A stretch of DNA of 29,198 bases from Candidatus Abyssobacteria bacterium SURF_5. GTDB lineage: Bacteria > Abyssobacteria > SURF-5. The DNA lies in NCBI GenBank assembly GCA_003598085.1, contig QZKU01000120.1, forward strand, positions 1-29,198, in the 5' to 3' direction. Positions 302 through 14,147 of this stretch are shown one piece after another. Numbering within the stretch: the stretch's first letter is position 1; every line of letters starts with the position of its first letter. The notes under the pieces were generated by a model. It saw nothing but the letters and a program-made list of their open reading frames with translations, was not told where the DNA came from and searched no databases. A program made the translations under genes and the position numbers.

Positions 302-709
302 ATGGTAGACATTTTTTCTCCTCAAAAACGAAGCTGGATAATGTCTCGTGTTCGGGGAACGAATACGAGGTCAGAGAAGAAGGTCTTCAGCCACCTGAGG
401 AAGGAAGGGATATATTTCCAGAAACATTATAGAAGAGCACCCGGTAATCCCGATGTGGCTCTTCCCAGGAAGAAATTATGTGTTTTCATAGACGGAGATT
501 TCTGGCATGGAAGGCGGATCAAGGAAACGTCCGATAAGCTACCACCTTTTTGGAGAGAAAAGATATTGACGAACATCAGGCGGGATATCCGGAATAAGAG
601 GAAGTTGCGAAAATTGGGATGGAAGACCATGCGTGTTTGGGAGTCGGATTTGAAGAAGAAGCCCGAAAAGACTCTCGAAAAGATTGTTGATTTTCTGTCT
701 GAACGATAG
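302..709 (+). CDS. vsr: Very short patch repair-type endonuclease (Vsr family)
   Basis: A 135-residue protein of the usual Vsr length, a PD-(D/E)XK-like endonuclease that nicks DNA; in the classical case this is next to T:G mismatches left by deamination of 5-methylcytosine. Visible signatures are the N-terminal MSRVRGTNTRSE, the catalytic-type NPD with D51, IDGDFWHG at about 63-70 (the FW pair is the DNA-intercalating wedge of E. coli Vsr), FWREKI..N..RD, and the C-terminal GW...RVWESDL. The zinc ligands of E. coli Vsr (C66, H71, C73, C117) are not conserved; D replaces the first Cys. It is the first gene of an operon with a cytosine methylase and a MORC-like ATPase, so it may act as the nuclease of a restriction system rather than only in repair. 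The ATG fits the family N-terminus, but the purine-rich AGGAGAGG lies unusually far upstream (about 15 bases). Confidence 0.9.
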   Translation: MVDIFSPQKRSWIMSRVRGTNTRSEKKVFSHLRKEGIYFQKHYRRAPGNPDVALPRKKLCVFIDGDFWHGRRIKETSDKLPPFWREKILTNIRRDIRNKRKLRKLGWKTMRVWESDLKKKPEKTLEKIVDFLSER

Positions 710-777
710 TGGGAAGTCGAAGCGCAGAATTCCTGTACCCATCCGCAGCGATGAATATAGTTTTTTCTAAGGTTATT

Positions 778-1845
778 ATGCCATCTACGAAAAAAATAAA
801 AGTGATAGATCTCTTTTGCGGCATAGGCGGTCTGACACATGGATTCATCAAGGAGGGACTGGACGTAATCGCTGGGATCGATAATGATTTGGGCTGCAAG
901 TTCGGTTACGAGTATAACAACCGAACCACCTTCATCGGTAAGGATATCCTTGACGTCTCCGCCGAGGAAGTGACCGATCTTTTCGGCCCATGCAAGAATA
1001 CGATCAGGGTTTTGGCGGGTTGCGCCCCATGTCAGCCGTTCTCCAAATTGAACCTGAAGGAGATAACGGATAAACAACTTGAGCCTTTGGGAAAATTCGG
1101 TCAGCTGATTGAAGAAGTCGAGCCGGATATAGTATCTATGGAAAACGTGATCGGTCTGGCGGACGAAAAGAAATACCCGATATTCAGGACTTTTCTAGAT
1201 GCGTTGGGGAGGAAGGGATATAAATATAAATATGAGATCGTGAACGCATCGGAGTACGGAGTTCCTCAGGATCGAAAGCGCTTGGTTCTGCTCGCATCAA
1301 TGTTCGGGAATATCGCATTGATCAAGCGCACCCATAAACACAAGAAGATAACGGTCAGGGATGTGATCAGTGATTTGGAACCGATTGAAGACGGCGAGGT
1401 CAGCGCGATTGATCCGCTTCACCGGGCGAGGAAACTCAGTCCTCTGAATCTGAGACGCATAAAGGCGACACCTCATGATGGAGGCAATTCCGGCAGTTGG
1501 AGAAAAGCCCTGATTTTGAAATGTCATAAAAAGAAATCCGGCAAGACATACAAGAGTACGGTGTATGGACGAATGCGTTGGGATCAACCCGCACCTACGA
1601 TGACGACACAATGTGTTGGCCTCGGCAATGGCCGTTTCGGCCATCCTGAACAAGATCGGGCGATAAGCCTTCGAGAGGCAGCTATTTTACAAACTTTCCC
1701 CCAAAACTACAAGTTCGTCGCTCCGGATAAGCAGATTATCACCGCGCACGTTGCAAAGTTTATCGGAAACGCGGTGCCGGTGAGGCTTGGAGCCGTTATC
1801 GGCAGAAGTATCAGAGAACATATAGAGCAATATGCCAGAAGATAA
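778..1845 (+). CDS. DNA (cytosine-5-)-methyltransferase
   Basis: About 355 residues from ATG 778, with all core C5-MTase motifs in order: SAM-binding motif I DLFCGIGG (11-18), motif IV GCAPCQPFS with catalytic C85, motif VI MENV (121-124), motif VIII QDRKR (164-168), a target-recognition region, TMTTQ and the LREAAILQTFP block, and motif X GNAVP (330-334). It transfers a methyl group from SAM to C5 of cytosine in a specific DNA site. The frame is open back to a GTG at 709 that touches the vsr stop, but the family N-terminus starts at the KVIDLFCGIGG strand, so ATG 778 (or 751) is preferred. The target site cannot be read from the sequence. The stop overlaps the next start by 14 bases, indicating translational coupling to the ATPase gene. 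Confidence 0.93.
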   Translation: MPSTKKIKVIDLFCGIGGLTHGFIKEGLDVIAGIDNDLGCKFGYEYNNRTTFIGKDILDVSAEEVTDLFGPCKNTIRVLAGCAPCQPFSKLNLKEITDKQLEPLGKFGQLIEEVEPDIVSMENVIGLADEKKYPIFRTFLDALGRKGYKYKYEIVNASEYGVPQDRKRLVLLASMFGNIALIKRTHKHKKITVRDVISDLEPIEDGEVSAIDPLHRARKLSPLNLRRIKATPHDGGNSGSWRKALILKCHKKKSGKTYKSTVYGRMRWDQPAPTMTTQCVGLGNGRFGHPEQDRAISLREAAILQTFPQNYKFVAPDKQIITAHVAKFIGNAVPVRLGAVIGRSIREHIEQYARR

Positions 1846-3475
1846 ATTCACATTCGAAATATCGTTGAGCGTCTTGGATCACCTTGGACGAAACCTCTAC
1901 AGAAGTTTTGCGACTGTCCTCGGCGAAGCCATTTCAAATTCCTGGGATGCGGACGCCAAAAACGTATGGATTTACGTCGATAGAGACAAGAACAGTTTCT
2001 TTATAAAAGACGACGGTAGCGGAATGACTGCGCTCGATTTTCAAAATAAGTTTCTAAAGATAGGCTATTCTAAAAGAAGAGAAGGGCACACGGCTTCGTC
2101 GAGCGGAAGGCCGTATATCGGCCGAAAAGGTATAGGGAAATTGGCGCTTCTGTCATGCGCGGATAAAGTACACGTTATTTCCAAGAAAGAGGGCACAGAT
2201 TACATCGGCGGGGTCATTGATAACTCCGGTTTGGACCGAGCCATAACAGACGACCTTACCCCTGGGCAATATCAATTGGGAGAACCGAACTTACCCATTT
2301 TCGAATCGTATGCCGGTGGACACGAAAAGGGCACTATCATCTACTTTGAGAATATCAAAGACGGGATCAGGAGCAGTTTGGATTTCTTGAAAAAGATTAT
2401 CGCGCTTTATTTCAGGTTTTCGCTCTTGGATGATTCATTTAATGTCTTCATTGACGACGAAAAAATAACACTTGATGATCTAAACGATCTTGCCGAGAAA
2501 ACCGAGTTCTTGTGGCGAATCAATGACCTTGACGATCCGTATATCAACGACAAATTAACGAAGTTGAAAGAACCCGTAAAAAACATAGAAATGTCGGCGA
2601 ATGTCAAAGGTTTTATCGCATCCGTCAGTAAACCGAGGGACCTTAAAGTTATTGGCACAGACGAAAGAGTAAGTGTCGACCTCTTCGTGAATGGTAGGTT
2701 ACGCGAGAGAGATATCTTGAAGCATATCCCAACCGCTCGACTTGCGGAAAATTACTTTTACGGACAAATCCATTTCAACGAACTGGACGATGGAAGAGAC
2801 AGATTTACGACGAGTCGTGAAGGAATAGTTGCCGAGGACCCGAAGTACAAAGAATTTCTCGAAGATTTGCGACGCAAAATATCCGAAATCCTCGAAGACT
2901 GGGACGAATGGAGAATAAAAAACAGAAAAGAGGGCGATGTGGAGAGCGAGAGAATTTCTAAGAAAGAAAGGGCCTCTATCGGATTATATAATGCTGTTTC
3001 GGGAGAGTATGAGCCGCCTAAAGATTCCGTAAATCGAAGAAAGGTCGACAGATGGGTAGACGAATTGAGAGATGATGCCGCTTTCAACTTTGAATCATAC
3101 GCGGAGTGTTTTGTTTCCGAAAATCTGGTCCGGAAATACATTCGCGACAAGAATCTCGCTGTATCGGCAGCAGCGCAAACGGAGATTTCGGAGAAGAAGC
3201 GACGGGAGACATTGAGCAAGCAAGATGGCAACGTAAACATTGATATAAGAAAAAATAACGACGACTTGAGTTATTTGGACATGTCTTATCTCGCAAGACA
3301 AGCCGATGTTACTGGTGTCCGAAACACGCTCCACAATGATTCCAAGGAATACAAACCGATCAGGGACGCAATTGCGCATACCGCTCTCCTGACCGACGAA
3401 GCGAAACGGCGACTGACTTCGGTATACGAGAATATAAAGGCGAGAGTGAAAACCTTGCTTTCCGGAAATGCTTGA
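1832..3475 (+). CDS. MORC/MutL-like GHKL ATPase of a restriction-modification system
   Basis: A 547-residue protein whose N-terminus carries a GHKL (Bergerat) ATP-binding fold: N-box EAISNSWDADA (E32, N36, D39), G1 box KDDGSGM (59-65) and G2 box GRKGIGKLAL (97-106). These match Hsp90/MutL/MORC ATPases rather than histidine kinases, because there is no phospho-acceptor domain. A C-terminal domain of about 100 residues ends in a helical segment with RDAIAHTALL and is of unknown function. The gene overlaps the methylase stop by 14 bases. Prokaryotic MORC-like ATPases linked to a cytosine methylase and a Vsr-type nuclease were described by Iyer, Abhiman and Aravind (2008). By inference, it is an ATP-driven clamp that licenses DNA cleavage by the Vsr-like nuclease. 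It converges with the next gene across a 77-base gap with no obvious terminator. Confidence 0.85.
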   Translation: MPEDKFTFEISLSVLDHLGRNLYRSFATVLGEAISNSWDADAKNVWIYVDRDKNSFFIKDDGSGMTALDFQNKFLKIGYSKRREGHTASSSGRPYIGRKGIGKLALLSCADKVHVISKKEGTDYIGGVIDNSGLDRAITDDLTPGQYQLGEPNLPIFESYAGGHEKGTIIYFENIKDGIRSSLDFLKKIIALYFRFSLLDDSFNVFIDDEKITLDDLNDLAEKTEFLWRINDLDDPYINDKLTKLKEPVKNIEMSANVKGFIASVSKPRDLKVIGTDERVSVDLFVNGRLRERDILKHIPTARLAENYFYGQIHFNELDDGRDRFTTSREGIVAEDPKYKEFLEDLRRKISEILEDWDEWRIKNRKEGDVESERISKKERASIGLYNAVSGEYEPPKDSVNRRKVDRWVDELRDDAAFNFESYAECFVSENLVRKYIRDKNLAVSAAAQTEISEKKRRETLSKQDGNVNIDIRKNNDDLSYLDMSYLARQADVTGVRNTLHNDSKEYKPIRDAIAHTALLTDEAKRRLTSVYENIKARVKTLLSGNA

Positions 3476-3552: not shown

Positions 3553-4944
3553 TCAATTGAGAGCTTTGTCAATAGCAACCCAAAATTCGGAAAAGCTCTT
3601 TTCATACTCCGGGTGGAGGGACAGGAATTGATCAACATGATCCTTGTATGCAGCCCCGGTATAAAATTCCACCAGTAGCTCGTGGCGAAGCTGCAAAAGT
3701 CGCTGTTTTGCAAGATAGGGGTGATCCATCACAGGGTGCGCGGTATCAAATTTTGACCAATCTTTATCCAGCGCATTCTTATTCACGTCTTCATACCATT
3801 CAGTGCCAGGAAATGGAGTCGCAAAGGTTAGCCGCAGTCTAAGACCCGGTAACTTGCACAATTCCCTAAAGGCCTTTCGAATTGACTCCTCGGTTTCATG
3901 TTCAAAACCTATCATATAAAAAATGAAGGGTATAATGCCCACGTTGGCGGTTTCCGTTATAGACCTCTTGATTTCGAGGGCGGATTGGCGCTTCTTCTGG
4001 TCCTTCAGTATCAGCGGATCCAGCGTCTCCACACCATAACATAAACAGACACACTTCGCCTGTCTCATTTTCGTTAGAAGAGCCTTGCTTAACCCGATAT
4101 TCGCGCAGCTTGACCAATAAATATCCGGATCAAGCCTCTTTTCCATCTCGTCGCATAAGGCAAAAAGTCTCCTCTCATTGATATTTATGCTGAGATCTTC
4201 TATAAAGAACATGTTTATCCGATGGTTCTTGTGGACGTGGTTCATCTCTGCGACGACATCAGACGGAGACCTGAATCGAGGCCTTCTGCCCCACATCCTG
4301 TTTGATGAGCAGAAATAGCAGGAGCGGACGCATCCTCTTGAATGGACGATAGGCGCATATCTCAGTCTTGAGCTTTCCGGATAGAAAAGACACCCTTCAG
4401 TCTGAAGATCGTAGAACTGCGGAGCGCGGACCGGCCACCGGATCGAGTCTAGGTCAGCAATCAATTCCCTAGGAGCGTTTATCTTGACGTTGTCGTTCTC
4501 GAGATAGGCAATTCCCTTGACCTTCTCCAGGGAAGAACCCTCCTCAATGCAGTGGAGTAGTTCCTTGAGAGTATCCTCTCCTTCACCATAAACTACAACG
4601 TCAAGCGATCCATTCGAATCGAGCAAGGTTTGTTGAGGAAGCGCAGTAGGATGATAACCACCCACAACGATAGTCAGGTCCTTCTTTTTTTCCTTAAGCT
4701 CTTGGCAGAGAGAGAGGGAGGCAATAAAATCCTTTGTGTAAACCTCCAGCAGGACGACATCAGGGTCATATCCAATTATCTCGTCAAGGAGCTTGTCCTT
4801 TCCCTGCCAATCGAAAAAAAGTCTAATATTGTGGCCGTCATCCTCGGCGGCCGCCATGACGTATTCGAGACCTATGGGCTCTTCAGGCTCAGGATCAAGA
4901 AAGTTCCTGCCTGGAATATCCAGATGAATCCCCGCGATTTTCAC
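3553..4944 (-). CDS. BchE-like radical SAM enzyme with cobalamin-binding-type N-terminus
   Basis: A 463-residue protein. Residues 1-165 look like the Rossmann-type B12-binding domain of the BchE/P-methylase class, with VVGGYHPTALP (93-103) and VYGEGEDT (118-125). The radical SAM domain follows with the cluster motif CVRSCYFC (C205, C209, C212), then IEDLSI and GVETLD strands and a C-terminal tail. The classical DxHxxG cobalamin-ligand motif is not apparent, as is common in BchE-type members, so B12 dependence is likely but not proven. It would cleave SAM at a [4Fe-4S] cluster to start a methylation or rearrangement; the substrate is unknown. It is the last gene of a seven-gene minus-strand operon, 46 bases after the PRMT-like gene. 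The start codon is GTG with only a weak ribosome site. Confidence 0.85.
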   Translation of the reverse strand: MKIAGIHLDIPGRNFLDPEPEEPIGLEYVMAAAEDDGHNIRLFFDWQGKDKLLDEIIGYDPDVVLLEVYTKDFIASLSLCQELKEKKKDLTIVVGGYHPTALPQQTLLDSNGSLDVVVYGEGEDTLKELLHCIEEGSSLEKVKGIAYLENDNVKINAPRELIADLDSIRWPVRAPQFYDLQTEGCLFYPESSRLRYAPIVHSRGCVRSCYFCSSNRMWGRRPRFRSPSDVVAEMNHVHKNHRINMFFIEDLSININERRLFALCDEMEKRLDPDIYWSSCANIGLSKALLTKMRQAKCVCLCYGVETLDPLILKDQKKRQSALEIKRSITETANVGIIPFIFYMIGFEHETEESIRKAFRELCKLPGLRLRLTFATPFPGTEWYEDVNKNALDKDWSKFDTAHPVMDHPYLAKQRLLQLRHELLVEFYTGAAYKDHVDQFLSLHPEYEKSFSEFWVAIDKALN

Positions 4945-4990
4945 TCAAGATTACTCTTAAAAGGACAAACAGATTACGATTTGTCACATT

Positions 4991-5992
4991 TCAGCCAATT
5001 GCCCGTTTCTCTGGTTCCAACGCCTCAATCTCTCCCTGAAAATTCGATTCATAAAACGGCTTTTTATTGCCGGCTTTTCGGTTTACTGTGCCCTCCCAGA
5101 CATAATAGGGCCTTTTAGCTTGCTTATCATGCATGGCTGAAAAAATCAGTTCTATCACATCGCCTCTTACAACCGGTACTGTATGCTTGATGGCAAAATA
5201 ACTCTGTCCCCAGCATGTTGGAGGCGCCCAGGGAGACGTATCAAGTATCACGTCCCCGGTGAGTTCGGTGACGAACCATGCCGCAAAACCGGTGAATCTA
5301 GCGTTTCTCGAAACGGAAAATCTGAACTTTCGCCTGAAAAAAATCTCAGTATGACCATATAGGTCAATCGCGTCAAGCCTTTCCGGCTTTGACAGAAGTT
5401 CACTGGGAGGCATCCCGATTATCTCGTAATATGCCTTGAAAGGGCGCCGAGCCTCATACGGAGCAACAATCAGGTCCTTCTCATAGACACTCGAGATTTG
5501 AGAATACGCTTCCTCCGCACAAACCGGACAGATGAAAACGTCAATTTTCTTTGGAATTATTGCGCCGCCCGATTTTAAAAACCGACCTCTAGCGTCTTCT
5601 ATTACGGAAGATATACCCTCATCATTGCCAATGCCGCCGATTATCTCGGCTATCAGCACATCTACCTTTTCCGGCAGGGATATGCTAAAGGACGACCCAA
5701 ATATTAAGCTCACTGAGTCTTGCATCCCGGCCGAAATGATGACCCGCTCCGCGAAGCGCAGTATCTCCGGTTCTTTCTCGATGGCATACACCTTCTTAGC
5801 GCCAGCTCTCGCCGCGGCTCTTGAAAGAATCCCGCAGCCGGCACCTATTTCCGCGACACAACAGCCTTCACTGACTACCTGCTCGATTGCGTTCTGGAAG
5901 GGTACCACCCGATTCTCATCAGAAATGTACAGTAAGTGAAGAGCAGGATTAGAATAGAATGGATGTTCCACATAATGAGGAATTAGTAACAT
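4991..5992 (-). CDS. PRMT-like SAM-dependent methyltransferase
   Basis: About 333 residues. Motif I VAEIGAGCGILS (46-57) and the post-I acid E72 form a class I SAM site. AEIIGGIGNDEG (115-126) reproduces the 'double-E' loop of protein arginine methyltransferases, with two glutamates (E116, E125) at the nine-residue spacing that holds the guanidinium. A C-terminal beta-barrel-like half contains SPWAPPTCWGQ, which aligns with the PRMT THW loop, but the His is a Cys (T259-C260-W261). By family it methylates arginine or a related guanidino or amino group; the target is unknown. The frame is open to a TTG at 6013, but ATG 5992 has GAGGA at good spacing and is preferred. It lies 14 bases after the HD-like gene and 46 bases before the radical SAM gene. 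Confidence 0.75.
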   Translation of the reverse strand: MLLIPHYVEHPFYSNPALHLLYISDENRVVPFQNAIEQVVSEGCCVAEIGAGCGILSRAAARAGAKKVYAIEKEPEILRFAERVIISAGMQDSVSLIFGSSFSISLPEKVDVLIAEIIGGIGNDEGISSVIEDARGRFLKSGGAIIPKKIDVFICPVCAEEAYSQISSVYEKDLIVAPYEARRPFKAYYEIIGMPPSELLSKPERLDAIDLYGHTEIFFRRKFRFSVSRNARFTGFAAWFVTELTGDVILDTSPWAPPTCWGQSYFAIKHTVPVVRGDVIELIFSAMHDKQAKRPYYVWEGTVNRKAGNKKPFYESNFQGEIEALEPEKRAIG

Positions 5993-6006
5993 CGTTTTTT
6001 CCTCAA

Positions 6007-7647
6007 CTAACAATAACTGGTCACATCTCCAGGGTCTTTCAGAATTCTATTTTTTCCAGGAAGAGCATTGACGAGGTCGAGAAAATTATTGCTGAATATG
6101 CTAACTGCTCTTTTAAAAACTTCAATTTTTTCTTCTCTTTCTCCAATACTAGGATCCCCGCCAAGCTCCTTCAGTAGTTGTTTTTGCGATTTCCTGAAGT
6201 CATGGCACAATGTGTCCACTAGGTCTAAGTTCAAATCCGGGTGAGTCTTTAGATATTGGAGAAGTGCAACAAGATATTTCTTTTCTTTCTTGGAAGCCGA
6301 AATACCGTCAACCCTTTTAATGATAGAGGCATTTCTAAGCTTCTTGTTCAGCAAGATAACGTTTAGAGATCTCAGCTGCACCTGGAGGTCGAGAGGATTC
6401 TCTCTGAAAGCTTCATTCAAATGACAGCAATCTAGAATGTCATTCCCAATCGATTCGTTAAATAATCTATTCACCCCATCTTCAAAATCTGTACTACTCA
6501 AGCATTTCCCAAAAGCTCTTTCTCTTTTCCTAAAGTCTCTCCAATAGTAACATTGGAAAAGTTTTCTTTGAGGTGCAAAAATTAGATACACCTTATCATC
6601 CACGTCGGCAGTTACAGTAAGATTCTTTATTGTTATGGTCTCATATCTACTGAACTTTTGGATACCATCCACCAGGGCGAGCAAGAAGAGGAATGGATCA
6701 GAAACCATCCTCTGATTTCTTCTTGCGTTGTTTCTTTTGTAGAAGTTGTGTCTGTGCCAGTGGTGCTCATGAATTATTCTTTTTGCCACAGCAAGAGCAA
6801 TCCTTGCGGTTCCATTGCCGCGCTCCACTTTTCTACGACGTAAGTTGTACCTGCTCCAATATTGATGGCAATAATGAGTATATAATGAGTTTCGGCCCCC
6901 CAAAGAAGGATTTTCCTCAAAACATGCGTCACATACATGATCGAGACATTCTAATGTTTGCCTCCTAGGCAAAGCTCCGCTCAAAGTAGCCTCCTGTTTG
7001 ATTAAGGGCATGGCTTCAGAAATGCAGCTTAAAACCTTACTAACATTGTAGAGAGCGGATAAGGGATAGCCGGAATCATGAAAAAACGAGATGAAATGCC
7101 AGATATAACGCATAAAGTCGTTTTTCAAAATAAATCCATTACGATGTCCTCTGATGGATGGATGCAATTTTGTGGCCTGTTTATAAAAGGCATCTCTCAA
7201 CGGCTTGTCCATCCAATAGAGCAACATATCTCCTAGCAGAAAGACCCATAATGTATGAAATATATGATGGTCCGGGGCTGCTTTCCTGATTCCAATGTTT
7301 TTAGTATCGCCATCCTCCTTCGGAAGCCACCAAAGAACTCTGGTTATCCAGTCCACCCCGAATAAGTACCGATATGGCAGCACCTCAGTCGTCTCACCAA
7401 ATAAGGGGGTATTATCTACCTTGTATTCAGGAAGCTGAGTTTGTTCCTGTAAAATCCGAATAAGCCTGCAATATCCTCTGCAAATTTTTGGATTATGCAG
7501 ATCCTTCGATAATTCCTTTTCAAAGTCTGCATCACTAGCTCTCAATGGTTCAGAGACTCGATTCATACTTGAGAAGGCAAGCCCATGTTTGCCCAAAAGT
7601 ATCTCTTTGACTAATTCATCCACCTTGTCCCATTCAAATAGTTTCAT
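6007..7647 (-). CDS. Unrecognised protein with HD-hydrolase-like metal motif
   Basis: A 546-residue protein with no family I can name. The middle has the order of metal ligands expected for an HD-type phosphohydrolase: DHHIFH (H127, H128, H131), FFHDSGYP (H190-D191), a His-rich HEHHWHRH (293-300) and LALVDGIQKFSR (D327). The segments are helical and aromatic, in keeping with the all-alpha HD fold. HD enzymes usually cleave phosphomonoester or phosphodiester bonds in nucleotides, or act as (d)NTPases. Residues beyond 340 are of unknown function. The start ATG overlaps the end of the ParA-like gene by 14 bases, so the two products are probably made together. The HD assignment is inference from motif spacing only. 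Confidence 0.55.
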   Translation of the reverse strand: MKLFEWDKVDELVKEILLGKHGLAFSSMNRVSEPLRASDADFEKELSKDLHNPKICRGYCRLIRILQEQTQLPEYKVDNTPLFGETTEVLPYRYLFGVDWITRVLWWLPKEDGDTKNIGIRKAAPDHHIFHTLWVFLLGDMLLYWMDKPLRDAFYKQATKLHPSIRGHRNGFILKNDFMRYIWHFISFFHDSGYPLSALYNVSKVLSCISEAMPLIKQEATLSGALPRRQTLECLDHVCDACFEENPSLGGRNSLYTHYCHQYWSRYNLRRRKVERGNGTARIALAVAKRIIHEHHWHRHNFYKRNNARRNQRMVSDPFLFLLALVDGIQKFSRYETITIKNLTVTADVDDKVYLIFAPQRKLFQCYYWRDFRKRERAFGKCLSSTDFEDGVNRLFNESIGNDILDCCHLNEAFRENPLDLQVQLRSLNVILLNKKLRNASIIKRVDGISASKKEKKYLVALLQYLKTHPDLNLDLVDTLCHDFRKSQKQLLKELGGDPSIGEREEKIEVFKRAVSIFSNNFLDLVNALPGKNRILKDPGDVTSYC

Positions 7648-9226
7648 CCTTCAAGATCCTGATTAGCCCTGACTTCATAATTTGGTCTTCGATGCCTGAT
7701 AATGTTTTAATGAATTTCTCAAACCTCCTATTTGTGCTCGCCTCGCTTTCGAAGCTATCAAATTGAGTGAATTCAGCCAAGGCTTTATCAAAATTAATGG
7801 AGTAGAAATGCAATTTATTTTTTATGAGCTTGTTACCCCCTTCTGGATATTCATAATAATCTATCATTTCATTAATGAAGCCAAGTTCGTCTGGACTTTC
7901 CGTTTTTGGAACCTCCGCTTGAAGCCAATCTACAAAGTGCGGATAGGGTCCTGGTTTAATTCTCTTGTTCGCAATCCAATGTACGTCTTGAAACAAAAGC
8001 GTATAGTAGACATCCCAATGCATGTTATAAGAATTAAGAATGATATCCAAAGCATCAGACGAGGAAACGATGATTAGTGCAGAATTCCTTACTTTCAAAT
8101 AGTTCAGCAGCTTTTCATTACCAAACACCAGCCCCGGCGAACAATCTAAAATTATAAAATCAAACCTGCTGGTTGCTTCGAGCTCCTCCAGCAGGTCCTT
8201 CAAATATTTCTCATTTCCTGACATTCGCCAAGATAGCATCTGCTGCCAAACCAGGCTTGCGGGATTAGTCCAAATAGTAAGGTCTGCTTTATAGCGCCTT
8301 TGGATTTCTTTGGCTGTCTTTCTCAATTCTTTCTTTTCCGCTTTTGATCCGAAGAGATGAAACAACCGCCTATAATCCTTATTTGAAGCTACTTCGCCAT
8401 TCGATGGAACGAGTAAGGACATTAAAGATCCACTAAAATCGAAATCAACAAGGGCTACCTTCTTCTTCTCTTTCAGTAACAAGTCTGCGATGCAAAAAGC
8501 CAAAGTAGTCTTACCCACGCCACCTTTCATCGAATTAACAGAGATTATCTTTGTTTTACGGGCTCTTTTTTTGGGTTCTTCAAGATATTCTAAGTTTGCC
8601 GTTACTCCTTGTACGTAATCGTCTATCAGTGTATTGCAATACCTTTTTTTCTCAAGGATATCACAGAAACTCATCCAAAAAGCCTTCTTCTCTTGCAGCG
8701 GCCAAGCTAACTCTGCAATGCATAACTCTTTAAGGAAGTGGTCACAAAGAGATTCGGAAATCTTAAGCGGAGACCTTTGTAGAGACAATCTTTTAGCGAG
8801 CTTTTCACTGAGCTTCCTCCTCTCTTCCGTCGGATTCCCACGAGTGGGAGTTTTCACCTTATCTATCTCCTTTCCCTTCCGGTCTTCATAAAGAAGGGCA
8901 CAGAGAGACATGAGGAGGTCATTTACCAGTAGCTTTTGGGGGCTACTTTGGGGGTCGGAAATGTAATAAGACAGAAGGGAAAATATATGAAGAAAATTCC
9001 TAGAAGAAGTTTCATTTAGTTGTCTCAAAGCACCAATAAATCTCTCAATCCCATTACTGATAAGTTCGTTCGCTTTACCTATTGCATTTTTCTCAAGCGG
9101 ATAATACCCTTTTCTGATTTCCATAATGAACTCGCGGAACTTCTTATCGCTTGGCTCTTTGAAAAGGGTATTCAGATAGTCCTGCCATAGTTGGATGATA
9201 TCTGACGTTAATTTTTCTTCCGGCAT
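7634..9226 (-). CDS. ParA/MinD-type (SIMIBI) ATPase with N-terminal extension
   Basis: A 530-residue protein. Residues 1-220 are a predicted helical region of unknown function. A deviant Walker A, SMKGGVGKTT (232-241), follows, then the A' region VALVDFDFSGS (257-267) and a Walker B strand FIILDCSPG with D361. The lysine at the start of KGGVGKTT is the signature lysine of ParA/MinD ATPases, which dimerise on ATP and position or activate partners. The large N-terminal half and the lack of a ParB gene or centromere-like repeats argue against plasmid partition. The ATG (9226) has GGAG at good spacing; a TTG one codon upstream is less likely. It is coupled by a 14-base overlap to the HD-like gene and follows the nucleotidyltransferase gene by 33 bases, so it probably belongs to the same complex or pathway. 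Confidence 0.78.
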   Translation of the reverse strand: MPEEKLTSDIIQLWQDYLNTLFKEPSDKKFREFIMEIRKGYYPLEKNAIGKANELISNGIERFIGALRQLNETSSRNFLHIFSLLSYYISDPQSSPQKLLVNDLLMSLCALLYEDRKGKEIDKVKTPTRGNPTEERRKLSEKLAKRLSLQRSPLKISESLCDHFLKELCIAELAWPLQEKKAFWMSFCDILEKKRYCNTLIDDYVQGVTANLEYLEEPKKRARKTKIISVNSMKGGVGKTTLAFCIADLLLKEKKKVALVDFDFSGSLMSLLVPSNGEVASNKDYRRLFHLFGSKAEKKELRKTAKEIQRRYKADLTIWTNPASLVWQQMLSWRMSGNEKYLKDLLEELEATSRFDFIILDCSPGLVFGNEKLLNYLKVRNSALIIVSSSDALDIILNSYNMHWDVYYTLLFQDVHWIANKRIKPGPYPHFVDWLQAEVPKTESPDELGFINEMIDYYEYPEGGNKLIKNKLHFYSINFDKALAEFTQFDSFESEASTNRRFEKFIKTLSGIEDQIMKSGLIRILKDETI

Positions 9227-9259
9227 CAATATCTCCGATCTGTCTCCGTAATAGAAAAA

Positions 9260-10036
9260 CTACGGTTCTTCGGGCAATTCGTACCATCTTACCCTGGTTC
9301 CCAGAAGCGCGCGCATTTTCCATCTTATTGTTTTCGGAGCCTTCTCAAGTAGTTGGTCTATCTGTCGAAGCGCCTCGCTTGCAGACGAGGCATCCTCCTC
9401 GTTCAACTGTTTCATGAGAGGCTCCTTCAAGATCCTGTTGAGTGTCAGCTTGCTAGTTTTCCATAACCCCCAATCGCGTCCGAAGCAGGATGATAACCTT
9501 GTTCGAGTGGTTGTGCGCAACTGGAGCTCCTGTTCTGGTTCTTTAAAGATGGAAGCCGTCAATAGTAGCGCCACCAGATCCTTCACGTCTCGTTGATTCA
9601 GTTCAACCACCTGAAGTTTGGTCAGCAGCAGGTCCCCCTCGTCCAAGGTAAGCTGTGCATTTTTCAGTGAAGCCGAGAGATCGATAACATGGCACATACT
9701 GAACTTGTTCAGGAAAATATCAATCTTAATTCTTTCAAGAGGATGAAAAAACAACAGACGGCGATGTCCGGCCAAGAAATTGAATTCTTTAGCAGGCTGA
9801 AAATTGTATGACGTTAAGTATTCTTCTATTAATTCCCGTTGTCGTGAATGGGCCGCAAAATCTATATCCTGGTATACCCTCTTCAGAACGGGATTTCTTT
9901 CGATTGCCTTTTTGCAAAGCAAAGCTATGCCAATTCCTCCCAGCAGCTTTAAAGCGATTCCTTTTTTTTCAGCTTCTTCAGCAAGCTCAACTGCACGACA
10001 GCATAAAGCATCGCTCAATTCAAAAACCCCAGTCAA
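9260..10036 (-). CDS. Nucleotidyltransferase-fold protein (AbiEii-like)
   Basis: About 258 residues from a TTG at 10036. The sequence shows the minimal pattern of the DNA polymerase-beta-like nucleotidyltransferase fold: LLGGIGIALL (GG near residues 32-35), a paired carboxylate in YQDIDFA (near 56-62), a third acid in RIKIDIFL (near 104), and a LNQRDVKDLVALL segment resembling AbiEii-type proteins. Such proteins transfer NMP groups to proteins, RNA or small molecules. The frame stays open upstream to 10285, but that part lies inside the permease gene and has low-complexity, non-protein-like content, so it is rejected. No ATG lies between the permease stop and the first conserved motif, so a TTG at 10036 or 10018 is likely. 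The gap to the permease stop is about 4 bases. The exact start is uncertain. Confidence 0.62.
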   Translation of the reverse strand: MTGVFELSDALCCRAVELAEEAEKKGIALKLLGGIGIALLCKKAIERNPVLKRVYQDIDFAAHSRQRELIEEYLTSYNFQPAKEFNFLAGHRRLLFFHPLERIKIDIFLNKFSMCHVIDLSASLKNAQLTLDEGDLLLTKLQVVELNQRDVKDLVALLLTASIFKEPEQELQLRTTTRTRLSSCFGRDWGLWKTSKLTLNRILKEPLMKQLNEEDASSASEALRQIDQLLEKAPKTIRWKMRALLGTRVRWYELPEEP

Positions 10037-10040
10037 TGAC

Positions 10041-11687
10041 TTATTCAGGAGGCAGCTCCCTAAATGCGTACTCGATGTTAATGCCTTGCATTCTCCTGAA
10101 GACTTTGATAAGGATATAGATTGCCAGACCGGAAAGAAGGACAGCCAAGTTGACGAGGAACATTTTGAAAGGAATCCCTGCCCCATAGCCAGCGTCGGTG
10201 GAGGGGAAAATGCTGATTCCGGAATAAGGATCAAGAAGCGCCGTAATTTGAACTGAGAAAACTCCCAGAAATGCGAATATTCCAAAAATGGTAATCAATG
10301 GAATTTTGCCTATTTTCCAGTTTACCGGAGATGATTCGAATACTTGCCGTTTTCTGTAGGGCAAAATAATTGCTGCCAAAGCTGTTATAAGAAAGGTCAC
10401 GAACGCTCCCGCTAATCCTACGATAAAAGCAAACGCCGGAACATACGCATACAGGTAAACACTAATCTCACAAATTATCCCACACACAATCAGTGAATAG
10501 ACTGGAGTATGAAATCGGGGACTGACTCTGGAGAGAAATTCGGGGGCAATGCGGTCCAATGACCATGCCAGCATGTTCCTAGTTACGGCTCCAAGTACCA
10601 AGGGAGCAAATGCGATCGCCCAGTAGGTTAAACCGAGGATTATGATAATACCGACAATACGCGAAGACAACCCAGCAGCGGCCAGTTCAGCATAGTTCGG
10701 CTGGACCCCAATCCCTTGTCCGATAGCAGTGAGGTAATTAATTGCACCAATCGTGTCGAAACCGACCGTCTTCTTAAAGGCGACAGACGCGAGAAAGGCA
10801 AAAAAACCGATGACAACAACCGAACCAATTAAACCAATCATCTGGGAATGCCGTGCGTTCTTTATTTCGCCGCCAAAATAGGTTGTTGTATTTCCCCAGA
10901 ATAGGAAATTCGCCGGCCAGTAAAATATTAAGAGCGTCGCCAGAAGACTGAATGGAGCTGTCGCATAACCATTCTCCCGCGCTTTAGCTGTTAAAGAGGA
11001 AAGCATCTCTTTTTGACCCGTAATTTTTCCAAAATACAAGTTGAAATTCGTAGTGTAATTTTCTCGTGAAGTTATAAGCAAAAAGAAGATCGCTAGCGCT
11101 ACGCTGGTCAGTCCGATCACAAAATACCAGCCCTGTATTTGGGCCATCATCCGCGTGTTCAAGATGCTTCCAATAATTATGAGGAGAAGCACGGCAGAGC
11201 CAACCACAAAAGCTCCGTAAGGTGCTGATAACCATTCTGCCGATTTCAACAATGACTCCGAGTTCCACATTACGCCGATAAAGCGGAACAGGGTGCTTAG
11301 CCCGTATTGAGAAAACAAGACGCAGCTGACTCCCGCATAGAATAGGATCCAGATCGACATGTTCCAGTTGGACATAAACCCTACGGCAGGTGAAATGATC
11401 CTAGAATTGTAAACATATTCGCCCCCTGAGCGGGCATAGGTCGAAGCAAGCATTGCGTTAATCAATGCCATGGGAATAGCGGCGACCGCGCCAAGAATGC
11501 AAGCCAACATCATGCTTGCTCCAGGATGGAAGGAAGGTATGTACAAAAAGGAATAAATCAGAATGAGGCCGATGTTAATAAAAGAAGAATTGAAGGCAAA
11601 TGCGTGCCATGCAGACAATTCCCTCACAAGCCCAGTTGCTTTTCGTGCAAAATAGACTCCTTCTCTTTCATTCGCTCTTGTTGTCAT
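10041..11687 (-). CDS. APC-superfamily amino-acid/polyamine-type permease
   Basis: A 548-residue, very hydrophobic protein with about 12-14 membrane segments. The start of helix 1 (AWHAFAFNSSFINIGLIL) and the segment STYARSGGEYVYNSR are typical of the APC family, where the SGGEYVY-like motif lies after helix 2. The central section FWGNTTTYFGGEIKNARHS matches the 'E(I/V)KN' loop of amino-acid permeases. Uptake of an amino acid, amine or peptide-derived compound by proton symport is likely; the substrate cannot be read. The ATG at 11687 has AGGAGG about ten bases upstream. It follows the phosphoesterase gene by 27 bases and abuts the nucleotidyltransferase gene. A permease inside such an operon argues for a small-molecule substrate. 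Confidence 0.88.
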   Translation of the reverse strand: MTTRANEREGVYFARKATGLVRELSAWHAFAFNSSFINIGLILIYSFLYIPSFHPGASMMLACILGAVAAIPMALINAMLASTYARSGGEYVYNSRIISPAVGFMSNWNMSIWILFYAGVSCVLFSQYGLSTLFRFIGVMWNSESLLKSAEWLSAPYGAFVVGSAVLLLIIIGSILNTRMMAQIQGWYFVIGLTSVALAIFFLLITSRENYTTNFNLYFGKITGQKEMLSSLTAKARENGYATAPFSLLATLLIFYWPANFLFWGNTTTYFGGEIKNARHSQMIGLIGSVVVIGFFAFLASVAFKKTVGFDTIGAINYLTAIGQGIGVQPNYAELAAAGLSSRIVGIIIILGLTYWAIAFAPLVLGAVTRNMLAWSLDRIAPEFLSRVSPRFHTPVYSLIVCGIICEISVYLYAYVPAFAFIVGLAGAFVTFLITALAAIILPYRKRQVFESSPVNWKIGKIPLITIFGIFAFLGVFSVQITALLDPYSGISIFPSTDAGYGAGIPFKMFLVNLAVLLSGLAIYILIKVFRRMQGINIEYAFRELPPE

Positions 11688-11714
11688 GCTGGTATGACCT
11701 CCTCAAGTGGCCAT

Positions 11715-12656
11715 TCATGCTGAAACAAATTGGTACCTTATCTTATTCTTTTTGACTATATCGACAATTACTCCTCTCAAAATACCATTGATATATTCGC
11801 TGCCGGGATTGAAGGAAATAGTTCGACCGATTTGGTCTCTACCTCTCGATTCATGGCAATGGCCGTGAAACGTAAGAAGCGGATCATATTTTTTGATTAC
11901 ATTTAATACCGCTTTGCTTCCCACGTGGATCATGCAGGGGCGGCCCCAGCGTGTTTTCAGATTCAGTTGCTCGTCGACTTGCGGCGCATAATCAAGGCTC
12001 GTCCCATAAGGAGGGCAATGGATATTAAGAATGGAAGAAGTGGCATTTTCTAATTGAGCAGCCAAGGCTTCGAGCTCTTCGGCCAATTCAGCTTCTTCCA
12101 TTTCCCGAGGGCTTCCGAATGGAGTCGGATTGCTCTGACCAAAACTGATCATCTCATAGGTATTACGTAGTATAACCTTTCGTCCTTCAGTGTTCAGGAG
12201 TCGGGGGGAACCATTTAAAACTTCTTCCACAACAGGTGTATCGTCATTTCCAGGCATTACGTAGCATTCCACGTCTTTCGGAAGCCGCTGCTCTGCAAAC
12301 TTCAACCACTCTCTCAATGAAAGACGGATAGCACTCTCGAAAGCATTGTCTAGGGCGTCAGGCTCAATTTTGATTCGAGAGGCCTCCTCACTATTCATAC
12401 GTCGTGGATAAAAACCGATCATCCTCGCATTGTTTTCGAATTTTTGGATCTCGACTTCGTGGCGCAGGATATATTCTTTTCCCATGAAAGAGGCTCTATA
12501 CGAACCACCGCCAATATCTATGATAGGGACAAGCGCCTTGCCGGCTAGATCACCGCCCAAAATGAGAACGTCAGCTTCGTATGATGTGGCCGCATTTATG
12601 AATTTTTTAAAGCAGGGTTCGGAACCATGGATATCACTGGCATAAAATATACGCAT
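11715..12656 (-). CDS. Calcineurin-like metallophosphoesterase
   Basis: A 313-residue protein with the complete metallophosphoesterase metal-site series: ASDIHG (D8, H10), GGDL (D36), GNDD (N137, D138), H213 in NIHCPP and GHCH (265-268). These bind two metal ions and hydrolyse phosphomonoesters or phosphodiesters. An inserted segment of about 80 residues between the second and third motifs is long for a minimal family member and may shape substrate choice. There is no signal peptide, so it is cytoplasmic. It is the first gene of the seven-gene minus-strand operon, with a purine-rich GAGAGG directly before the ATG and a candidate promoter 40-70 bases upstream. The substrate is unknown; nucleotides or nucleotide-linked second messengers are possible. 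Confidence 0.88.
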   Translation of the reverse strand: MRIFYASDIHGSEPCFKKFINAATSYEADVLILGGDLAGKALVPIIDIGGGSYRASFMGKEYILRHEVEIQKFENNARMIGFYPRRMNSEEASRIKIEPDALDNAFESAIRLSLREWLKFAEQRLPKDVECYVMPGNDDTPVVEEVLNGSPRLLNTEGRKVILRNTYEMISFGQSNPTPFGSPREMEEAELAEELEALAAQLENATSSILNIHCPPYGTSLDYAPQVDEQLNLKTRWGRPCMIHVGSKAVLNVIKKYDPLLTFHGHCHESRGRDQIGRTISFNPGSEYINGILRGVIVDIVKKNKIRYQFVSA

Positions 12657-13160: not shown

Positions 13161-13502
13161 TGTCCTAATTCGTGCCCAACAGGATCAGGAAGGCAGGCCG
13201 GAGGCCTGACTTAGGCCAAAAGGCAAAGGGATAAAGGCAAAGGGGCAAGACCGGCAATGGAAGCGAATTCCACGAGCGGCGGGAGGTTATTCCGGCCGCC
13301 AATCTCTGGCGCCATGGATGATTCCGGTAAATATAAGCCTCTTCACCGCTGATGAGATACATGATGCGGATGGCTTCTTCTTGGTGGTTGAATTTAGAGA
13401 TTCGTCGCACGCGAATCACGCGAGGCTCGTGAAAGGCTGGGCAAGGTCAGACGTGATTTCGACAATCATACGTGAAGAGGAAGGCTGAAATGGCGCGGCT
13501 GT

Positions 13503-13550
13503 GCCGCGCATCCTGGATTCCCGCTTAAGGCCTGCGGGAATGACGAAAAG
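13503..13550. repeat. Palindromic repeat family A, copy 1
   Basis: The core has arms ATTCCCGC and GCGGGAAT around TTAAGGCCT, preceded by GCGCATCCTGG and followed by GACGAAAAG. Further copies lie at 13761, 14100, 15850 and 16151. The element is short, carries no gene and can form a hairpin, like REP/BIME-type dispersed repeats. Confidence 0.85.
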
Positions 13551-13561
13551 GGAAGTCGTAA

Positions 13562-13590
13562 GCGGGCGACCCAGCGGGTCGCCCCTACGG
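13562..13590. repeat. Palindromic repeat family B, copy 1
   Basis: The inverted repeat GGGCGACCC / GGGTCGCCC has a three-base loop and is followed by CTACGG. It lies 12 bases after a family A copy, preceded by GTCGTAAGC. The same order of family A then B recurs at 13761-13886. Confidence 0.85.
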
Positions 13591-13631
13591 AGGGTAATGA
13601 GATCGCGGTGGGGGGTATAATCGGCGTGTGC

Positions 13632-13675
13632 CGGCGGTTTGAAGAGAGATCCTTCGCCGTCGCTCAGGATGACAA
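13632..13675. repeat. Repeat family D, short copy
   Basis: It begins GGCGGTTTGAAGAGAGATCC and ends TCAGGATGACAA. It matches the middle of the long direct repeats at 13935 and 15935, but has a different short centre (CGCCGTCGC) in place of the CCCCGGATCATG palindrome. A related but divergent copy. Confidence 0.7.
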
Positions 13676-13727
13676 CGAAGACATCGCATCGGCGTGTATC
13701 ACGCGAGGCGCGGGAGTAAGAAAAGAA

Positions 13728-13758
13728 CACCACGCGAGCCGCGTGGCAGGCATGGCTG
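13728..13758. repeat. Palindromic CCACGCG element, copy 1
   Basis: The inverted repeat CCACGCG / CGCGTGG with a three-base centre AGC is followed by CAGGCATGGCTG. The same 29-base string recurs at 16113-16141, and in both places a family A copy follows within about 20 bases. The pair therefore seems to travel as a unit. Confidence 0.75.
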
Positions 13759-13760
13759 AC

Positions 13761-13808
13761 GCCGCGCATCCTGGATTCCCGCTTAAGGCCTGCGGGAATG
13801 ACGAAAAG
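13761..13808. repeat. Palindromic repeat family A, copy 2
   Basis: It is identical to copy 1 (13503-13550) over essentially its full 48 bases, including the flanking GCCGCGCATCC and GACGAAAAG. Near-identity suggests recent spread or gene conversion. Confidence 0.85.
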
Positions 13809-13857
13809 GGCGGCGGCACAGCAGGCAGGGCAGGAATGACGAAAAGAGCGGTCGTAA

Positions 13858-13886
13858 GCGGGCGACCCAGCGGGTCGCCCCTACGG
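13858..13886. repeat. Palindromic repeat family B, copy 2
   Basis: It has the same GGGCGACCC / GGGTCGCCC palindrome and CTACGG tail as copy 1, again preceded by GTCGTAAGC. It is separated from the upstream family A copy by about 50 bases containing a partial duplication (GGAATGACGAAAAG twice). Confidence 0.85.
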
Positions 13887-13934
13887 TGGGGAATGGGATC
13901 AGGTTGGTGGGAAATAATCGGCGTGTATCTGCGT

Positions 13935-14083
13935 TCATCACGCGAGGCGCGTGACCATGCGAAGCGCTTGGCAGGCAAGGTCAGGCGGTTTGAAGAGAGA
14001 TCCTTCCCCCGGATCATGTCCGGGGTCAGGATGATCCCGCGAAGCGCGGGATTTCGCGTACGCTCAACAAGAAGAGGAAGGTT
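13935..14083. repeat. Long direct repeat, uninterrupted copy
   Basis: About 150 bases that recur at 15935-16106. The unit is itself a mosaic of palindromes: CACGCGAGGCGCGTG, then GGCGGTTTGAAGAGAGA, then CCCCGGA/TCCGGGG, then CCCGCGAAGCGCGGG, and it ends CGCTCAACAAGAAGAGGAAG. No reading frame of interest runs through it. The copy here has GGG where the second copy carries an extra 27-base palindromic insert. Confidence 0.85.
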
Positions 14084-14099
14084 CATATGGCGTGGCTGT

Positions 14100-14147
14100 G
14101 CCGCGCATCCTGGATTCCTGCCTAAGGCATGCAGGAATGACGAGAAA
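14100..14147. repeat. Palindromic repeat family A, copy 3 (compensated variant)
   Basis: The arms read ATTCCTGC and GCAGGAAT instead of ATTCCCGC and GCGGGAAT. Both arms changed together so the hairpin is kept. Such compensatory change suggests that the folded structure matters to the element. Confidence 0.8.

Follow-up and report, generated by a model that had tools for sequence, protein, structure and literature searches.

A widespread phosphoesterase-permease-nucleotidyltransferase module in a probably composite seven-gene run of Candidatus Abyssobacteria bacterium SURF_5

In reversible nucleotidylylation of the GlnD/GlnE type, the use of nitrogen or solutes is controlled by attaching a nucleotide and taking it off again. 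Nucleotidyltransferases of the ANT(2'')-Ia, LnuA and MenT1/MenT3 kinds occur in resistance or toxin-antitoxin settings, YfcE and its Metallophos_3 relatives are calcineurin-like phosphodiesterases, and amino acid permeases of the APC superfamily are represented by the AA_permease_2 family. Relatives of the last three groups are encoded in a row (g1-g3) within a window of 29,198 nucleotides, the whole stretch of Candidatus Abyssobacteria bacterium SURF_5 contig QZKU01000120.1 analysed here. The metallophosphoesterase (g1) possesses the same metal-binding motifs as YfcE and other Metallophos_3 proteins, all of them complete, but these motifs are separated by a large stretch, the protein is longer overall, and it scores 23 against YfcE, for which the cut-off is 56. 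The permease (g2) matches the AA_permease_2 family over most of its length, to which the module adds a conserved C-terminal tail and linkage to a nucleotidyltransferase (NTase) and a phosphoesterase. The NTase (g3) shares its fold (Z ~10-13.7) and its GG, DxD, D active-site pattern with ANT(2'')-Ia, LnuA and MenT1/MenT3, but is only 10-18% identical to them, has an additional C-terminal helical part and belongs to a family that is found in a permease module.

Table 1. Features of the window; g1-g7 make up the seven-gene run (12656-3553, minus strand)
Feature	Coordinates	Strand	Preferred start	Length (aa)	Assignment	Profile match or motif
g1	11715..12656	-	ATG 12656	313	calcineurin-like metallophosphoesterase	Metallophos_3, E 5e-8
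g2	10041..11687	-	ATG 11687	548	APC-superfamily permease	AA_permease_2, E 7e-21
g3	9260..10033	-	TTG ~10033	~257	minimal nucleotidyltransferase (NTase)	GG, DxD, third Asp
g4	7634..9226	-	ATG 9226		ParA/MinD-type ATPase	KGGVGKTT; AAA_31, E 2e-17, residues 226-388
g5	6007..7647	-	ATG 7647	546	HD-like phosphohydrolase	FHDxGYP, HNxYK, FLLxLxD
g6	4991..5992	-	ATG 5992 (or TTG 6013)		PRMT-like methyltransferase with PRMT_C	PRMT_C, E 5e-12
g7	3553..4944	-	GTG 4944	463	cobalamin-binding radical SAM protein, BchE/HpnJ-like	B12-binding, E 2e-21; Radical_SAM, E 4e-14
Restriction-modification locus	302..3475	+			Vsr-like nicking endonuclease, C5 cytosine methylase, BbrUII/HgiDII-like HATPase restriction protein in a row	
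Repeat stretch	13405..14146				non-coding, GC-rich	repeats of 25-82 bases, 2-3 copies

The seven open reading frames lie head to tail on one strand (Table 1), and with the preferred starts the intergenic gaps from g1 to g7 are 27, 7, 33, -14, 14 and 46 bases. The original prediction was right in its gene count, strand and tight spacing, in the 14-base overlap, which is that of g4 and g5, and in the AT-richness of the run relative to its flank. Because the genes are so closely spaced, g1-g7 are likely to form a single transcript; terminator-like sites within the run are no more frequent than in shuffled sequence, and no Rfam match was found. Pfam cut-offs were passed for Metallophos_3, AA_permease_2, AAA_31/ParA, PRMT_C and B12-binding plus Radical_SAM. 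The GC content of the seven genes is 0.40-0.48 (0.42-0.53 at third positions), compared with 0.55-0.61 (0.63-0.73) in four genes beyond 16 kb; the flank has ~58% GC, with a step near 13.2 kb. GC content is also layered inside the run, being lowest in g4 and g5 (0.40), then ~0.455 in g1-g3 and ~0.475 in g6-g7. Both g1 and g5 are absent from the other two of the three Abyssobacteria genomes examined, which agrees with the island having been acquired by the SURF_5 lineage. The GC-rich stretch that borders the AT-rich island is repetitive (for example, CATCCTGGATTCCCGC...GCGGGAATGACGA), and the restriction-modification locus, an ordinary one, is convergent with the run.

With g1-g3 the run contains a copy of a three-gene transport module that is widespread in bacteria and archaea. 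A scan of genome contigs with an alignment of three phosphoesterases as the query returned at least 568 relatives, and the loci of the best 80 were read. By record titles, the bacterial sources among these 80 are Chloroflexota, Actinomycetota, Bacillota, Pseudomonadota, Desulfobacterales, Spirochaetes and Armatimonadetes, and the archaeal ones include Thermofilum, Nitrososphaeria, Bathyarchaeota and Asgard-type archaea, among others. Forty-two of the best 80 loci have at least 4.5 kb on both flanks; an APC permease lies within 4.5 kb of the phosphoesterase in 40 of these and an NTase in 32, and one or the other is found no more than 300 bases away in 40. No APC permease or NTase was seen beyond 5 kb in the 29 loci of the best 80 with 9 kb on both flanks. 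About a quarter of the loci have the phosphoesterase and permease without a nearby NTase. The complete trio occurs within 8 kb in 52 of the best 80 loci, on one strand in 42 of the 52 and in all six possible gene orders. Since gene order has been shuffled while the company has been kept, a shared function rather than a frozen block is suggested. Inter-locus distances of the three proteins correlate (Mantel rho 0.21-0.40, reached in 0 of 2000 permutations), in a comparison that ignores species relatedness.

Plasmids gave a similar picture by tblastn: Halobellus limi, a haloarchaeon, has neighbouring relatives of g1 and g3 that adjoin an APC permease, and in Thermomicrobium roseum an APC permease lies beside a g1 relative. 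In the reverse search, for which the permease of ten genomes was the starting point, the majority of additional copies adjoin a phosphoesterase or an NTase; this search is only partly independent, as nine of the ten genomes were chosen as phosphoesterase carriers. One actinobacterial genome encodes two tail-bearing permeases with neither enzyme in the flank read. Some loci (L051, L065, L072, L032 and L009-L011) have the phosphoesterase-permease pair doubled, or two permeases. The genes next to the module are catabolic and varied, encoding dehydrogenases, sugar kinases, formamidases and amidohydrolases, and no further gene recurs in most of the module loci. We found no description of a phosphoesterase, an NTase and an APC permease together in the literature covered, which took in few subscription journals, so that the module is apparently undescribed.

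The other four genes do not share this distribution. Relatives of the ParA, HD-like, PRMT-like and radical SAM proteins were found in none of the best 80 of at least 568 phosphoesterase loci. The run is therefore very probably a composite, in which the g1-g3 module is joined to two rarer pairs, and g4-g7 look like separate cassettes, ParA with HD and PRMT-like with B12 radical SAM, that run together here and in no other locus read. Recurrence of at least four of the seven genes in distant taxa had been set beforehand as the mark of a single system, and three recur. Of the suggested transporter-linked enzyme pathway, the phosphoesterase, permease and NTase stand, as they do recur together, and the inclusion of g4-g7 falls. 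That all seven genes form one new signalling, modification or defence system we consider very unlikely: the tight spacing on one strand, the overlap, the position of the AT-rich island next to a restriction-modification locus and the presence of a TIR gene beside a distant HD relative (see below) speak for it, but g1 relatives occur without g4-g7 in all 80 of the best loci, and the HD-like protein has no convincing relative in the four phyla sampled and a single distant one in Bacillota.

Both enzymes of the module have their full set of catalytic motifs. In the g1 family, D8, H10, D36, N137, H213 and H266 are invariant among 50 relatives and H264 is kept in at least 90%, so all the metal ligands of calcineurin-like enzymes (DxH, GD, GND, H and GHxH) are present. 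The permease g2 belongs to the APC superfamily, with 75 bits against a cut-off of 27 for AA_permease_2; compared with PDB chains by sequence, it had no match at E 0.01. Its C-terminal tail, ending in ...QGINIEYAFRELPPE, is common to the module permeases: all 73 aligned share one end column and an invariant proline at the third position from the end, within a tail that approximates G-I-D-x-x-x-x-F-x-E-I-P-P-E and is of the E-[I/L]-P-P-E type. Conservation in these permeases peaks near residues 83-96, not in the tail. The tail is nevertheless an unusual site for conservation, in a comparison made among module permeases alone.

The NTase g3 matches NTP_transf_5 weakly, but its family has the catalytic residues of nucleotidyltransferases, with G32, D56 and D58 invariant and D105 kept in at least 90% of 57 sequences. 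A model built with these 57 sequences (pLDDT 93.4) was closest to ANT(2'')-Ia (4xje; Z 13.7, rmsd 3.3, 153 residues aligned), LnuA (Z 13.3) and MenT1 (8an4; Z 12.1, rmsd 3.5, 171 aligned), followed by MenT3/TglT (Z ~10). The modelled structure thus places g3 in the ANT/Lnu/MenT nucleotidyltransferase fold across most of the protein. NCBIfam resistance models did not match g3, and a search of viral structures with the NTase gave no match at E 0.001. The presence of MenT1 and MenT3/TglT among the structural matches, together with weak AbiEii matches in two family members, would agree with a MenT/AbiEii-type toxin that has the phosphoesterase or some other partner as its antidote. This reading appears improbable, as the constant partner of the NTase is a permease amid catabolic genes and the neighbour clusters contain no further gene that recurs in most loci. 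No AbiEi/MenA-type antitoxin gene was recognised among these clusters, in a reading that did not use antitoxin profiles.

Overall, the explanation that we regard as best, and as fairly probable, is a composite run in which g1-g3 are a transport module whose enzymes serve the permease and g4-g7 are separate. What was observed is that the three genes are linked, that the catalytic motifs are complete, that a confident model has the NTase fold and that the permeases share the tail. According to this proposal, the NTase and the metallophosphoesterase would be cytoplasmic enzymes whose role is tied to the permease rather than to any single substrate. The NTase would attach a nucleotide and the phosphoesterase would remove it, and the nucleotide added or removed would set the activity of the permease via its C-terminal tail. 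Such reversible nucleotidylation is our preferred mechanism, although a tentative one. If it holds, the module would work like GlnD/GlnE, with the differences that its target is a transporter and that removal is carried out by a phosphoesterase; the likeness would be one of mechanism, and no sequence relation to them is apparent.

That the permease is what the enzymes serve, rather than a particular solute, is itself no more than a plausible suggestion. The variety of the catabolic neighbours leads us to infer that the permease is under the control of the enzyme pair. Enzymes acting on a solute would be expected to vary with that solute, yet mean identity across loci is 44% for the phosphoesterase and 35% for the NTase, as opposed to 27% for the permease, which points to the permease as the possible target. 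The nearest NTase folds, which modify antibiotics or tRNA and not proteins, count against control of the permease, as do the loci that lack a nearby NTase and the two actinobacterial permeases that bear the tail with neither enzyme in the flank read, and a solute target stays the main rival because relatives of the NTase fold act on small molecules or tRNA. In that case the NTase might trap the imported solute by adenylylation, in the way that ANT(2'') or LnuA act on antibiotics, and the phosphoesterase might release it. This would be in line with small-molecule adenylyltransferases being the nearest folds (Z 13.7 and 13.3) and with the full catalytic motifs kept by both enzymes, but less so with catabolic neighbours that differ widely around a phosphoesterase better conserved than the permease; we consider solute trapping a possibility of some weight, short of being likely. 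Returning to control of the permease, its most general form would be a transporter control system of bacteria and archaea, in which a nucleotide is written and erased on the tail of a large APC subfamily, or the enzyme pair docks there, whatever the solute; this extension is speculative.

Outside the module, g4 and g5 are near-orphans, and the ParA and HD searches reach close relatives only, so that a conserved g4-g7 system may have gone unseen. The g4 protein has an N-terminal part of ~225 residues in addition to its ATPase domain. Against the family profiles of Pfam, NCBIfam and PADLOC, g5 had no HD or other informative match, and its model, built from the single sequence, had a pLDDT of 39.5, too low for a fold search. 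No relatives of the HD-like or ParA proteins were found in plasmids or viral contigs, nor of the HD-like protein in phages; 23 pattern matches to the HD-like protein in genome contigs included no true relative. Searches for g5 covered ~1,450 genomes of five phyla. In two of these searches the query combined g5 and the N-terminal part of g4; this joined query had no match in whole genomes, and samples of Desulfobacterota, Pseudomonadota, Chloroflexota and Spirochaetota had no convincing relative. Weak HD matches in L126, L127 and L128 have stops within them. The only convincing relative is a 578-residue HD-RyR protein of a Bacillota genome (34% identity over 74 residues, E 2.6e-4), and this single distant relative has the FHDxGYP, HNxYK and FLLxLxD motifs in common with g5. 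Its gene is directly upstream of, and overlaps, a TIR-LRR gene (L129:8019-11647). The pair resembles a conflict system; PADLOC gave no match for its HD-RyR member, whose plasmid relatives match in the RyR part only.

This distant neighbourhood is the only defence-like hint. With g1-g7, PADLOC gave domain-level matches (mad2, PDC-M28B and PDC-S10) and completed no known system. Neither the new defence island that had been suggested nor a RiPP system has support for the seven genes.

The last two genes encode a PRMT-like methyltransferase and a B12 radical SAM protein. The former, g6, shares PRMT_C and the double-E loop (AEIIGGIGNDE, by inspection) with PRMT6, which it matches by phmmer at E 1.6e-28, but has TCW where THW is expected; its relative in L094 has THW. 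The latter, g7, carries CVRSCYFC and has the same domain architecture as BchE and HpnJ, but is far below both equivalog cut-offs; identification as the BchE cyclase was rejected at 178 bits against an NCBIfam cut-off of 481. Relatives of g6 (E < 1e-24) were found in 4 of 198 Desulfobacterota and 3 of 301 Chloroflexota genomes. The window's order of a PRMT-like gene and then a B12 radical SAM gene is repeated in L094, one of five readable PRMT loci, which is weak evidence for a pair because B12 radical SAM genes are common. L095, L096 and L122 have asparagine synthase genes beside the PRMT-like gene, together with genes of the HPr-kinase-like or NTP_transf_5 kind; this setting is lasso-peptide-like. 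A PRMT-like domain also lies within a Nostoc gene annotated as a non-ribosomal peptide synthetase (L005:6001-6891). The arrangement in L094 and these neighbours of other bacterial PRMT-like genes might indicate that g6 and g7 act as a pair, helped by g3, in the maturation of a peptide product (RiPP). However, the run, whose gaps do not exceed 46 bases, leaves no space for a precursor gene, the asparagine-synthase-like cyclase and leader peptidase of a lasso peptide cluster are absent from the seven genes, and g3 belongs to the permease module; we regard this reading as unlikely.

Treating the seven genes as one system would merge unrelated parts. The same permease, phosphoesterase and NTase are kept together in many genomes of two domains while their catabolic surroundings change. 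Provided that the two enzymes do control the permease, the module would be a general and simple way of regulating solute uptake, and would provide a function for an unnamed group of nucleotidyltransferases and for a group of Metallophos_3 proteins.
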